NCBI GenBank assembly: GCA_022651245.1
Contig: JALCQM010000022.1
Coordinates: forward strand, 1-49,915
DNA: 49,915 bases
Origin: Lactobacillus sp.
GTDB taxonomy: Bacteria > Bacillota > Bacilli > Lactobacillales > Lactobacillaceae
Direction of reading: 5' to 3'
Below the pieces are notes generated by a model, which saw nothing but the letters and a program-made list of their open reading frames with translations, was not told the DNA's origin and did no database searches. The position numbers and the translations under genes were made by a program. Positions 21,866 to 36,826 of the stretch are shown one piece after another; the stretch's first letter is position 1; each line of letters opens with the position of its first letter.

Positions 21866-21983
21866 CAGAGCGAAGCATCGCGGTTTTAGCAATGTGTGTA
21901 AGGCAGCGTGGGTGCGTATCGGCGAAGCCGATGCGTGCCCGCGATGACTTACACGCAATTGCGTTGCGATGCGTAGCTCGACG
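21866..21983 (+). repeat. Structured 3'-UTR element, copy R4a
   Basis: Outer arms GCATCGC / GCGATGC, second stem CAAT / ATTG, GTGTAAG / CTTACAC, terminal hairpin ATCGGC-GAA-GCCGAT, with CGGTTTTAG conserved. Every stem has a different sequence from R3a but pairs in the same place. Begins two bases after the lpdC stop. Confidence 0.8.
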
Positions 21984-21991
21984 AAGAAACC

Positions 21992-22108
21992 CGAGAGCGA
22001 AGCATCGCGGTTTTAGCAATGTGTGTAAGGCGGCCTGGGTGCGTCGCGGCACGCGGCGTGACCGGGACGACTTACACGCAATTGCGTTGCGCCACACAGC
22101 TCGCCGAC
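21992..22108 (+). repeat. Structured 3'-UTR element, copy R4b (hybrid arms)
   Basis: The 5' half repeats R4a (AGCATCGCGGTTTTAGCAAT), the terminal hairpin is of the R3 type (GTCGCGGCACGCGGC) and the 3' outer arm GCGCCACAC matches the GTGTGGC class of R1, so the outermost stem no longer pairs. This looks like recombination between copies. Confidence 0.7.
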
Positions 22109-22180: not shown

Positions 22181-22774
22181 TTGAAGCGTATTGTTGTTGC
22201 CATTACCGGCGCCAGTGGCACCATTTACGGTATCCGGTTGTTAGAAGCGTTACACGCGGCGCCAGAAGTTGAAGTGCACCTCGTGATGAGTCCTTGGGCC
22301 AAGGAAAACCTGGCCATTGAAGCCAGCGGATACAGTGAAAGCCAGATCAATGCATTGGCAGACGTGGTGTACGACTCACGAAACATGGGGGCGACAATCG
22401 CCTCAGGTTCTTTTCGTCACGATGGCATGGTAATCGTTCCGGCCAGTATGAAGACGGTTGCGGCTATTGCGACAGGAATGGGCGACTCGCTGATCGGTCG
22501 AGCCGCCGATGTCACGCTGAAAGAGCGTCGGCCGCTATTGCTCGTGCCGCGGGAATCGCCGTTCAACCAGATCCATCTGGAGAATATGTTGAAGCTGGCG
22601 AAAATGGGCGTGGAGATCATTCCCCCGATCCCGGCCTTTTACAATCAACCGCAAACGATCGCGGACCTGATCGACCACAACACGATGAAACTACTGGATC
22701 ACTTGCACATTGACAATGAGTTATCGGCACGGTGGCAAGGCTTAGCACAAGCCAAGCAAGAGGCCCGCCGATGA
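22181..22774 (+). CDS. lpdB: UbiX family flavin prenyltransferase (LpdB)
   Basis: Prenyltransferase of 197 residues that makes prenylated FMN, the cofactor required by LpdC. ITGASGTIYGIRLLEAL at the N-terminus binds FMN; VPASMKTVAAIATGMGDSLIGRAADV and LKERRPLLLVPRESPFN are family hallmarks. The start is the TTG at 22181, directly after AAAGGAG; the frame upstream runs into repeat sequence and is not coding. Its stop overlaps the lpdD start (ATGA), so the two are translationally coupled. About 320 bases of mostly structured elements separate it from lpdC. Confidence 0.93.
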   Translation: MKRIVVAITGASGTIYGIRLLEALHAAPEVEVHLVMSPWAKENLAIEASGYSESQINALADVVYDSRNMGATIASGSFRHDGMVIVPASMKTVAAIATGMGDSLIGRAADVTLKERRPLLLVPRESPFNQIHLENMLKLAKMGVEIIPPIPAFYNQPQTIADLIDHNTMKLLDHLHIDNELSARWQGLAQAKQEARR

Positions 22775-23163
22775 CGCCGCGGGTGTTTACCGCGACGCAG
22801 GCAGGCTATTCGCTTCAGCTCGTGGTCACGCGGCAAAGCCAAGACCTTTTGATCCAGCTACTCGGCGGGGATGTCCCGCATTATGGGGTGGTGACGATGG
22901 TGGGTCAAGATGGCATCACTACGCACGCGTTGCCTAGCCGGCCGGGGCATGTGCATCAAGAAGGCGTGCTGACCGAGCGGGTGGCGGCGGTGCTGCAACC
23001 TGTACTGCCGGGCAATGCGATCATTACTGGCGGCATGCACGTCAACAAGATCACGCCGGCACAAATGGCTGCGGCGAGTGCGATGACGCAACAGTTAGCC
23101 GAAGCAGTGCGCGACTGGCTGACGGCCCAGCCACCGCTCACGATCACAGAAGAATTCTCTTAA
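22771..23163 (+). CDS. lpdD: LpdD family protein, third component of gallate decarboxylase
   Basis: Protein of 130 residues corresponding to the small subunit D encoded with UbiD-type phenolic acid decarboxylases. It contains GGDVPHYGVVTMVGQDG, the histidine-rich SRPGHVHQEGVLTERVA and GNAIITGGMHVNKITPAQM. It is believed to help with prenyl-FMN handling rather than catalysis. The start overlaps the lpdB stop by ATGA. It ends before a strong terminator. Confidence 0.85.
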   Translation: MTPRVFTATQAGYSLQLVVTRQSQDLLIQLLGGDVPHYGVVTMVGQDGITTHALPSRPGHVHQEGVLTERVAAVLQPVLPGNAIITGGMHVNKITPAQMAAASAMTQQLAEAVRDWLTAQPPLTITEEFS

Positions 23164-23226: not shown

Positions 23227-23260
23227 TTGACTGGAATCCCGCCTCCGCTTCCCGTATAAT
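23227..23260 (+). promoter_or_regulatory. Probable efp promoter
   Basis: A perfect TATAAT at 23255-23260 places transcription start near 23267. A TTGACT at 23227-23232 is 22 bases away, longer than usual, so the -35 element is uncertain. The resulting RNA would carry about 25 bases before the leader ORF and about 135 before efp. Confidence 0.6.
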
Positions 23261-23291
23261 GAACCACGAAGAGAAAGCGGGAGGAGCCGCG

Positions 23292-23384
23292 ATGTTTATT
23301 TTTTTTAACGGCTTGGGCCACGCATTAATCATGCCGCTGCCGCCGCCGTATTCGGCGTTGGTTGGCGGAATGAATCGCGCATAG
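23292..23384 (+). CDS. Leader peptide with polyproline stall motif upstream of efp
   Basis: ORF of 30 codons between the efp promoter and efp. It has an ATG at 23292, the ribosome binding site GGGAGGAG five bases upstream and a TAG at 23382-23384, 18 bases before the efp ATG. The peptide starts MFIFFNGLGH, has MPLPPPYS at residues 14-21 (codons 23331-23354, with Pro-Pro-Pro at 23340-23348) and ends GGMNRA. Pro-Pro-Pro is the classical motif at which ribosomes stall without EF-P, so a feedback role on efp is inferred. The proline codons coincide with a CGCCG-TATT-CGGCG hairpin (23344-23357), and the leader's own GAGGAG lies in the loop of a GCGG/CCGC hairpin. I know of no description of such a leader, but could not search. 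Confidence 0.75.
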   Translation: MFIFFNGLGHALIMPLPPPYSALVGGMNRA

Positions 23385-23402
23385 CGCATAAGGAGAAAAG
23401 AC

Positions 23403-23957
23403 ATGGAAGCAATCGATTTACGTGCAGGAATGACGTTTGAAAAAGATGGCAAGTTGATCAAGGTGATCGAAAGTAATCATCATAAGCCGGGTAAGGGCAA
23501 TACCTTGATGCAACTGAAGTTATATGACGTGCGTGCCGGGTCCACGGTGCAAACCACGATGCGCCCGAGTGAAAAGATCACGCCGGCAATTTTGGAGAAG
23601 AAAAACGCCCAGTACTTGTATGAACAAGACGGCACCAGCTTCTTCATGGATACCGATACTTACGAACAGTACGAATTGCCAGACGAATCTATCGAACACG
23701 AACGCCTGTACTTGCTGGAAAATGCACTGGTGCAAATCGAATTCTACGGTAGTGAAGTAATCGGGATTACCTTGCCATCGACGGTGAACTTGAAGGTGAC
23801 CGAGACCCAACCTAACATTAAGGGGGGGTCTGTGACCTCTGGTGGCAAGCCTGCGACCTTGGAAACCGGCTTGGTGATCAACGTGCCAGAATTTATTTCT
23901 GAAGGCGAAGTTGTGCAGATCAACACGGCCAATGGTGAATACCAAAAGCGCGCATAA
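23403..23957 (+). CDS. efp: Elongation factor P
   Basis: Translation factor of 184 residues that binds between the P and E sites and rescues ribosomes stalled on consecutive prolines. It has three OB/KOW-type domains. The tip loop HHKPGKGNT places the functional lysine at residue 31, in the PGKG context common in Firmicutes. Domain III ends with the usual [21 protein letters not shown]. Start after AAGGAG. Codon use is strongly biased. It is preceded by a leader ORF with a Pro-Pro-Pro motif and followed by a terminator. Confidence 0.97.
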
Positions 23958-23980: not shown

Positions 23981-24012
23981 ACGCGTATCGAGTTTGCGAT
24001 GCGCTTTTTTTG
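23981..24012 (+). terminator. Terminator after efp
   Basis: GCGTATCG / CGATGCGC stem with an AGTTTG loop and seven T. Confidence 0.8.
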
Positions 24013-28167: not shown

Positions 28168-28529
28168 GGGGGTGTAATGGTCTCGACATTGGTGCTTGCG
28201 CACGTGGTGCACGTCGGAGGGTCGGCTCCGTCATCAACGCATACAGTTTATTAACTGCAAAAAACAACAATTCTTACGCTTTAGCTGCCTAATAACAGCT
28301 TAGCGTGATCGCCGTACCTTCGCTCAAGGGGTGCTTAGCGGTCTCAAACTAATTGAGCTACGGACGATCTCGCCACCTGAAGGATCGCCAAGAGACTAAC
28401 AGGTTAGTCTATCGGCGTTAGCCTTGTGATCCGGCGCGGCTGGTAGGCGAATTTTAAATAGGATGGCTAAGCGTGTAGAGCCATGTGTAGTGGGGCTGAT
28501 GGACAGGAGTTCGATTCTCCTCACCTCCA
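28168..28529 (+). ncRNA. ssrA: Transfer-messenger RNA (tmRNA)
   Basis: RNA of about 362 nt that frees stalled ribosomes and tags the unfinished protein. The 5' acceptor strand GGGGGTG pairs with CACCTCC near the 3' end, followed by discriminator A529; the T-arm GGAGTTCGATTCTCC is intact. The tag frame starts with the resume codon GCA at 28257 and encodes AKNNNSYALAA with TAA at 28290-28292. The 3'-terminal CCA is not encoded; the next bases are TTATG. The 3' end is the likely attachment site of the element that follows. Confidence 0.96.
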
Positions 28530-28552
28530 TTATGAATACCCCAAAACCCTGT

Positions 28553-35721: not shown

Positions 35722-36826
35722 GATTGACTTCCTTTCCGATCCGTAAAATGCTGGCGTGCGGGTGCTCATTTTGGCGGATCACGAGTTCGCCTACGGTGCG
35801 GTCAGCTAGGTACTCGACGGTATCGCCATCGCGCCAGATAAAGTCGCCTCGAAGCATTGCGGCGTCGTTTTTCAAGGTGCGATTGAAGTGGCGCTCCAGG
35901 TGTGGCACGGTCAATGCGATGTCGAGTAGGTCCTGGATGATGGCATGGGCGGTCGGGAGCTGGCCGGCGCCTTGGCCGAAGAATTGCAGCTCGCCGATCG
36001 TCGGGCCATCTAAGCGGATCAAGTTAAAATTATCGGGGCACTGGGCTGCAAGACTCGCTTGTGGCACCAAGGTCGGGGCGATGACGGCCGCGAAGCGATC
36101 GTGTTGGCGGACGGCTTCACCGATCAGGCGAATGGCTAAATCGTGAGCTTTGGCCCAAGCGATGTCTTGTGCAGAAACATTGCGAATGCCAACGGTAGGT
36201 AACGCAAAGTTAGGGGCGGTGTTGAAGGCGATCGCGCCAGAGATCCGCACTTTGTTAGCGACGTCGAGCCCATCGATGTCTGCCGTGGGGTCTTTTTCGG
36301 CGTAGCCTAATTCTTGGGCAGAGGCTAAGGCGGTTTTGAATTCTTCGCCTGTTTTGGCCATTTGGTCGAGAATGTAGTTGCTAGTGCCGTTAAAAATACC
36401 AGACAGTGATTGGATGTCGTCGATGCGGGCCGCATTTTCGAGGTTCTTCAACCAAGGGATACCACCGCCAGTCGTGGCTTCATAGTAGAAATGCACGCCG
36501 TTAGCCGCTGCCGCTTCGGTAAAATCACGTAAATACAAGGCAACGACTGCCTTGTTGGCCGTTACGACGTGCTTGTGCGCGGCTAAGGCTTTGAGAATGT
36601 ATGAATGGGCTGGTTCGATGCCGCCCATGGTTTCCACCACGGCGTCTAAGGCGGGATCGGCTAAGATCGCGTCATAATCTGTGGTTTCGATCGGTAACAT
36701 TGCCGGGCGGTCTTCTTTAGCCAAAACGTGCGTGACTTGAAGTTTTTTTGTTTGGTTCGTTTGCCCAGCAATGATCTTATAGACACCGCTACCGATAGTC
36801 CCTAAACCTAAAATCGCGATCTGCAT
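35666..36826 (-). CDS. hom: Homoserine dehydrogenase
   Basis: Converts aspartate semialdehyde to homoserine, the step leading to threonine and methionine. GLGTIGSG at residues 6-13 binds NAD(P); VVTANKAVV and the catalytic region with GTSNYILDQM and ELGYAEKDPTADIDGLDVANKVRIS are conserved. At 386 residues it is shorter than the about 430 residues of Firmicute enzymes with a C-terminal ACT domain. I see no ACT domain, so feedback inhibition through it appears lost. Its 3' end overlaps the aspartokinase start by 56 bases. It is divergent from thrC. Confidence 0.92.
   Translation of the reverse strand: MQIAILGLGTIGSGVYKIIAGQTNQTKKLQVTHVLAKEDRPAMLPIETTDYDAILADPALDAVVETMGGIEPAHSYILKALAAHKHVVTANKAVVALYLRDFTEAAAANGVHFYYEATTGGGIPWLKNLENAARIDDIQSLSGIFNGTSNYILDQMAKTGEEFKTALASAQELGYAEKDPTADIDGLDVANKVRISGAIAFNTAPNFALPTVGIRNVSAQDIAWAKAHDLAIRLIGEAVRQHDRFAAVIAPTLVPQASLAAQCPDNFNLIRLDGPTIGELQFFGQGAGQLPTAHAIIQDLLDIALTVPHLERHFNRTLKNDAAMLRGDFIWRDGDTVEYLADRTVGELVIRQNEHPHASILRIGKEVNHESLQVRRVLDGQRQSIQ

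Follow-up and report, generated by a model that had tools for sequence, protein, structure and literature searches.

A conserved, proline-ended leader peptide precedes the second elongation factor P gene of Lacticaseibacillus and related genera and probably senses EF-P capacity

The leader reading frame and its place before a second efp gene

Our question was whether a short reading frame with consecutive proline codons, located in front of a gene for elongation factor P (EF-P), could gauge the activity of the very factor that the downstream gene encodes. The initial annotation of the window (the whole stretch of 49,915 nucleotides analysed) had described a 30-codon open reading frame (ORF) between a TATAAT box and efp and had read it as a probable self-sensing attenuator. 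Its coordinates for the ORF, the Shine-Dalgarno (SD) sequence, the stop codon and the peptide MPLPPPY all proved exact: GGGAGGAG lies five bases 5' of the leader ATG at 23292, MPLPPPY is encoded by 23331-23351, and 18 bases separate the leader TAG from the efp ATG at 23403 (Table 1). The putative -10 box is located only ~30 nt upstream of the leader start, and a consensus scan picked no -35 hexamer at the usual spacing from TATAAT. No Rfam family matches the leader site above its gathering score, the only match in the window being a tmRNA gene (28168-28532, plus strand). The gene directly upstream of the leader (22771-23163) matches the Pfam family PAC_bac and is bacterial proteasome-assembling-chaperone-like. 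An imperfect tandem direct repeat (21867-22107; 57 nt at 93% and 52 nt at 83%, spacing 123-127) is found between UbiD-like and UbiX-like genes.

Table 1. Features of the leader-efp2 locus (positions in the window)
Feature	Position	Strand	Remarks
TATAAT, putative -10 box of the leader-efp2 transcript	23255..23260	+	
Leader Shine-Dalgarno GGGAGGAG	23279..23286	+	duplex -10.3 kcal/mol
Leader ORF, 30 codons, MFIFFNGLGHALIMPLPPPYSALVGGMNRA then TAG	23292..23384	+	conserved before efp2, frame-specific selection
Hairpin A, PPP codons on 5' arm	23336..23365	+	four-species consensus fold, one compensatory pair
Pro17-Pro18-Pro19 codons, predicted stall site	23340..23348	+	63 nt before efp2 ATG
Hairpin B, GCGC/GCGC	23377..23387	+	unchanged in four species
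efp2 Shine-Dalgarno AAGGAG	23390..23395	+	
efp2, elongation factor P, second copy	23403..23957	+	TIGR00038, three EF-P Pfam domains
Terminator-like hairpin after efp2	23983..24004	+	

The leader does precede an EF-P gene, as plain self-control of efp would have it, but this gene is one of two efp copies, a paralogy that the first reading had overlooked. The other copy in the same genome (efp1, C8:33241-33780) is 43% identical to the window gene (efp2) and adjoins rpmA-, asp23- and nusB-like genes (ORFs named by eye), surroundings in which the housekeeping copy is usually met. The EF-P encoded in the window is 99% identical to that of Lacticaseibacillus baoqingensis, its nearest named relative. 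Every one of 30 genomes of the genus gave at least two efp matches, and the leader-bearing genomes hold both copies; family f2 comprises 18 genomes with a single efp. With two copies present, the logic is no longer plain self-control but that of a second, inducible copy. Two efp genes are known from some lactobacilli, and a 2024 paper has speculated that one of them is expressed constitutively while the other is regulated according to translational need (PMC11611912).

Conservation, specificity and selection

The original proposal had been made to depend on conservation of the ORF and its proline codons before orthologous efp genes, and we find a conserved, selected and proline-ended leader specifically before efp2. 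An SD-led ORF with PPP precedes efp2 in 22 of 30 Lacticaseibacillus genomes and a PP leader (LLQPPS) in two more; a PP leader is absent in the other six, which include a clade with long-standing efp2. The main form in this genus reads MFIFF-x5-AL-V/I-M/V-PLPPP, and other forms are MDxLxWRVLPPPW and MINLFLVRRALPPPW. The leaders of genera g21, g22 and g30 (FAL type) follow MxxxGFALSLAPP or MLHFGFALPLPPP, that of g5 MSFTLKIMRSIFSIPPN and that of g37 MIYLLLIKKFALPPA.

A uniform rule (start at ATG, a length of 8-60 codons that include PP, and an SD duplex no weaker than -5 kcal/mol) detects a leader at 52 of 116 distinct efp2 loci, spread over five genera (g1, g5, g21, g22 and g30), versus 2 of 55 efp1 loci. 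The distant loci L068-L073 were dropped before this count and the strict-rule count reported below. The leaders of L087, L121 and L122 are missed by the uniform rule and stand outside the 52; they were labelled by hand in the tree, and L121 passes the strict SD rule. Both efp1 positives (L002 and L141) represent a 45-codon ORF with QAPP located -201 to -63 before efp1, present in this genome and its closest relative. The first proline codon is found 52-73 nt before the efp2 ATG at 41 of the 52 loci and 79-145 nt before it at the other 11, in several of which strong hairpins fill the space between prolines and efp2 (by eye). The distance from leader to efp2 ranges from 4 to 118 nt, and we thus reject coupling of leader stop and efp2 start as a general rule; simple coupling of this kind, which the initial annotation had entertained, is unlikely with gaps so variable.

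Three other stretches before efp2 were seen in passing. Four g5 loci (L084, L096, L097 and L103) have a different short SD-led ORF, MSPG(PG)AR..., ~73-80 nt before efp2 and with no Pro-Pro; common to four species of one sub-clade, it is possibly another kind of leader. In Loigolactobacillus (L060 and L061, two species) an ORF with MSVLIGCGLPNN and no Pro-Pro runs in frame into efp2. Several g25 loci (L079-L083) show an ORF-like stretch, MYQHYxP..., ~146-86 nt before efp2, possibly the tail of the preceding gene.

To what extent could such ORFs arise by chance? On both strands of the window, PPP occurs in 2 of 116 ATG ORFs of 8-60 amino acids whose SD is at least as strong as -6 kcal/mol, namely in the leader (SD -10.3) and in an ORF at 36423 (SD -6.2), the latter being a point in favor of a chance ORF. 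Under a strict SD rule, a PPP ORF is found at 24 of 116 efp2 loci, at none of 55 efp1 loci and in 4 of 11600 shuffled efp2 regions (0.03%); for PP the counts are 37 of 116 (one in g37) versus 82 of 11600 shuffles. A profile of the PLPPP leaders returned one match each in 16 of the 30 genus genomes (E ≤1.6e-11), always directly before efp2, and the only other one among the matches listed has an E value of 0.02. In this genome the leader is the single strong match (E 3e-12). A FAL-leader profile, run on 27 chosen genomes, has its best match directly before efp2 in 24 of 24 efp2-bearing g21, g22 and g30 genomes (E ≤1.9e-4) and misses two g37 genomes with a shorter FALPP form; five further matches are weak (E 0.01 to 0.9), including the only one in a g30 genome without efp2 (G212, E 0.74). 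In a search for leaders outside the family, the A1 profile, which detects the PLPPP type only, gave strong matches in G000 and G027 only and three weak ones (E 0.008 to 0.02) among 198 genomes of the order. The profiles were built partly from these leaders, so their evidence lies in place and uniqueness, not in discovery. We conclude that the leader is real, conserved and specific to efp2.

The in-frame pN/pS ratio is 0.31 for 14 PLPPP leaders (L015, L016 and L023 excluded), 0.30 for 23 FAL leaders and 0.32 for 5 IPPN leaders, and the out-of-frame ratio is 1.1-2.3 in the same three types. The PPPW set of 3 near-identical leaders (pN/pS 1.59) carries little information. With pS at 0.67-0.72, that is, with many synonymous differences, the peptides have been kept over long times. 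By this sequence measure, the peptide is under amino-acid selection up to the prolines. Together with conservation, shuffles and efp2 specificity, this frame-specific selection leads us to regard a chance ORF as refuted.

Downstream of the prolines, the leaders vary in both length and sequence (by inspection), as would be expected of an arrest peptide. Several leaders end 1-4 residues past the prolines, and the leader types have little in common other than the prolines and their position. Amino-acid selection would also be expected of a working microprotein that neighbors efp2 by chance, but the loose ends, the early stops and the small overlap between types argue against it, and we consider this reading very improbable.

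Residues other than proline (F, A, L and the initial MFIFF) are as conserved as the prolines, and the proline codons vary among CCG, CCA, CCT and CCC. These observations bear on a proline-supply attenuator, in which the leader would sense charged proline tRNA rather than EF-P. Classic amino-acid attenuators contain consecutive codons for one amino acid, such as proline, and the leader has such codons. However, the FAL type has just two prolines, the other residues are equally conserved while the proline codons vary, the downstream gene is efp and not a gene of proline synthesis, and 51 of the 52 leaders lack an intrinsic terminator. We therefore judge a sensor of proline supply to be quite unlikely. 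The sole terminator candidate in the 52 leader regions is a weak one in L003, there is none in the window, and transcription attenuation by an intrinsic terminator was rejected.

The predicted stall and its effect on efp2

With fair confidence we read the ORF as a regulatory arrest peptide that gauges how well the cell can translate runs of proline, above all its EF-P activity, and adjusts efp2 expression accordingly, such that low EF-P causes a proline stall and turns efp2 up. When EF-P is short, a ribosome would stall at the leader prolines, with the conserved nascent chain in the tunnel assisting, and the stall would raise efp2 output until EF-P is sufficient again. PPP and APP have been reported to stall ribosomes and EF-P to relieve such stalls (PMC4176338), from which we infer that EF-P would relieve a stall on the leader. 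In the same study LPPP, the form present in the window, caused weak stalling in one context in E. coli, and residues upstream of the prolines mattered for stalling (PMC4176338), which may be why the upstream leader residues are conserved. Counting against the sensor reading are this weak stalling of LPPP, the six congeners that lack a PP leader, the APP-containing ORF before two efp1 genes and, in the window's type, a predicted SD access that a stall leaves unchanged. The leader may also read other factors that relieve proline stalls, for example YebC (PMC12234827).

We compared RNA folds with and without a stalled ribosome, placing the P site on the second proline codon with a footprint of -15 to +17. 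Predicted access of the efp2 SD rises by more than 0.1 at 27 of 51 loci and falls as much at 4 (L106, in which no efp2 SD was recognised, was excluded). On stalling, access changes from 0.25 to 0.61 in the FAL type (22 loci), from 0.48 to 0.74 in the IPPN type (5 loci), from 0.46 to 0.49 in the PLPPP type of the window (17 loci), from 0.39 to 0.43 in the PPPW type (5 loci) and from 0.43 to 0.63 in others (2 loci). The rise in the FAL type is larger than in synonymous recodings (P = 0.014) and larger than after shuffling of the spacer (P = 0.020).

The proline codons of FAL leaders (e.g. CCU CCU) face the efp2 SD (AGGAGG), and the two partners covary, GGGG occurring with CCCC (L099 and L108) and GGAG with CUCC (L101). 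Cognate pairing is stronger than swapped pairing (mean -10.6 versus -8.7 kcal/mol; permutation P = 5e-5, relatedness being ignored in this as in the Wilcoxon tests). At the second proline codon, 18 of 23 FAL leaders have a pyrimidine in third position, compared with 83 of 172 proline codons inside the efp2 genes that follow these leaders (P = 0.008); the first proline codon shows no bias (9 of 23, P = 0.51). In a sliding scan, only 12 of 23 FAL loci have their best SD-pairing stretch at the prolines (-12 to +9 nt). The modeled architecture in these three related genera thus supports, short of proof, that a stall frees the efp2 SD; by this pairing, the stall would uncover the site and switch efp2 on.

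This arrangement bears on the sign of the response. The initial annotation had preferred a stall that raises efp, and the RNA architecture of the three related genera agrees with this choice, but no change in SD access is predicted in the window's own genus. Since the proline codons pair with the efp2 SD in the related genera, a stall probably means efp2 on, and from the modeled FAL architecture and the logic of feedback we consider this sign likely. The reverse response, in which a stall reduces efp2 output, for instance because RNA or ribosome traffic can no longer enter the gene, would be compatible with the folds of the window's genus, which do not settle the sign. It is unlikely, given that the FAL prolines lie opposite the efp2 SD, so that a stall should open it, and that a positive loop is hard to make sense of.

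How a stall would act in Lacticaseibacillus is a separate matter. A fold change opening the efp site had been suggested for the window, yet predicted access of the ribosome-binding site (RBS) is the same with a ribosome on PPP. RBS unmasking in this genus was tested in three ways and is not supported (proline-SD pairing P = 0.16, access unchanged). The window fold also shows the U-rich MFIFF codons paired with the efp2 SD; the fold of the nearest relative L003 does not, and this pairing was rejected. The two hairpins of the initial annotation fold as described there, but the one holding the leader SD was seen by eye only in the window and L003 among the folds listed. The outermost pair of hairpin A is broken in the window, hairpin B spans the leader stop directly before the efp2 SD, and the leader RNA of the window as a whole is no more stable than shuffles (z -0.5).

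Our second choice for the output step in Lacticaseibacillus retains the same sensor: a ribosome stalled near the 5' end would protect the mRNA from decay, or would act through hairpins A and B, in either case without RBS unmasking. Stalled ribosomes can protect mRNA in Gram-positives. The lack of SD unmasking in this genus, the retention of both hairpins in four species and the closeness of the putative -10 box to the leader start are consistent with such an output, whereas the related genera read as RBS unmasking; we regard it as a possible, tentative solution.

The proline-sensing mechanism is probable in outline. We lean somewhat toward a wider reading as well, a bacterial EF-P homeostat in which the leader senses EF-P capacity to control an EF-P gene, with efp1 for housekeeping and efp2 inducible. 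Some members of the family would use two proline codons both as EF-P-dependent stall signal and as the strand masking the SD, so that a single stall would read the shortage and open the gene.

Origin of the leader and comparison with known systems

In a tree of 116 efp2 and 7 efp1 rows, whose bootstrap is not fully settled, all leaders fall inside one clade of 86 efp2 (support 100/98), and the 30 remaining efp2 have none. The simplest interpretation is a single origin followed by losses in g12, in a clade of g14 with Lacticaseibacillus L024, L025, L028 and L029, in L004, in part of g37 and in g6. All 14 g6 genomes and three of four g12 genomes have a single efp, of the efp2 type (the fourth g12 genome gave no match). 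No proline leader was found at the 10 g6 and 3 g12 efp2 loci examined; an ORF at the g6 locus L111 has PP but no SD and was not counted. Leader loss where efp2 is the sole copy fits an inducible second copy, in two lineages only, and leaders were also lost in lineages that retain both efp copies.

If the mechanism holds, nothing more than a peptide and the mRNA encoding it would place a translation factor under direct feedback, and the leader would be a natural in vivo reporter of EF-P capacity. The idea of a regulated second efp would thereby gain a component that experiments can address, namely a leader responding directly to proline stalling. The leaders occur in food bacteria that are amenable to genetic work.

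Our search, confined to the open-access literature, found no leader of an efp gene in the text available. As in EF-P-responsive proline leaders, a short, translated-looking ORF with consecutive prolines is located upstream of efp2. The closest likeness is to the Salmonella leaders MgtP of mgtCBR (PMC5299641) and MgtL of mgtA (PMC6460261), short ORFs with proline codons in which, according to these reports, a stall at low EF-P raises expression downstream. Their targets are described as magnesium-transport operons, whereas the target here is efp2, and MgtP is reported to act by transcription attenuation through alternative stem-loops, in contrast to the leaders found here, of which 51 of 52 lack an intrinsic terminator. 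SecM, MifM and the RAPP-type peptides ApdA and ApdP likewise use a nascent-chain stall in an upstream ORF to monitor an activity and feed back on a gene, but what they monitor is protein localization (PMC12992588). RAPP stalls are reported not to be relieved by EF-P (PMC12992588), and neither RAPP nor RGPP occurs in the 52 efp2 leaders.

In macrolide-inducible erm leaders, as far as our sources describe them, a stalled ribosome opens a masked RBS, and the FAL type would work likewise: a masked SD is freed by the stall in the predicted FAL folds, which is not seen in the window type. The erm stall needs a drug, whereas the efp2-leader stall would follow from lack of EF-P, and in the FAL type the masking strand is formed by the stall codons themselves. 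The uORF of mammalian AZIN1 ends in a conserved proline motif (PPW) and involves eIF5A, the homologue of EF-P (PMC9082881), and some Lacticaseibacillus leaders have LPPPW; the AZIN1 case is described as polyamine control with ribosome queueing at a non-AUG start, not as control of the factor's own gene (PMC9082881). What is probably new here is that a proline-stall leader has been placed on a gene for the proline-stall factor itself.
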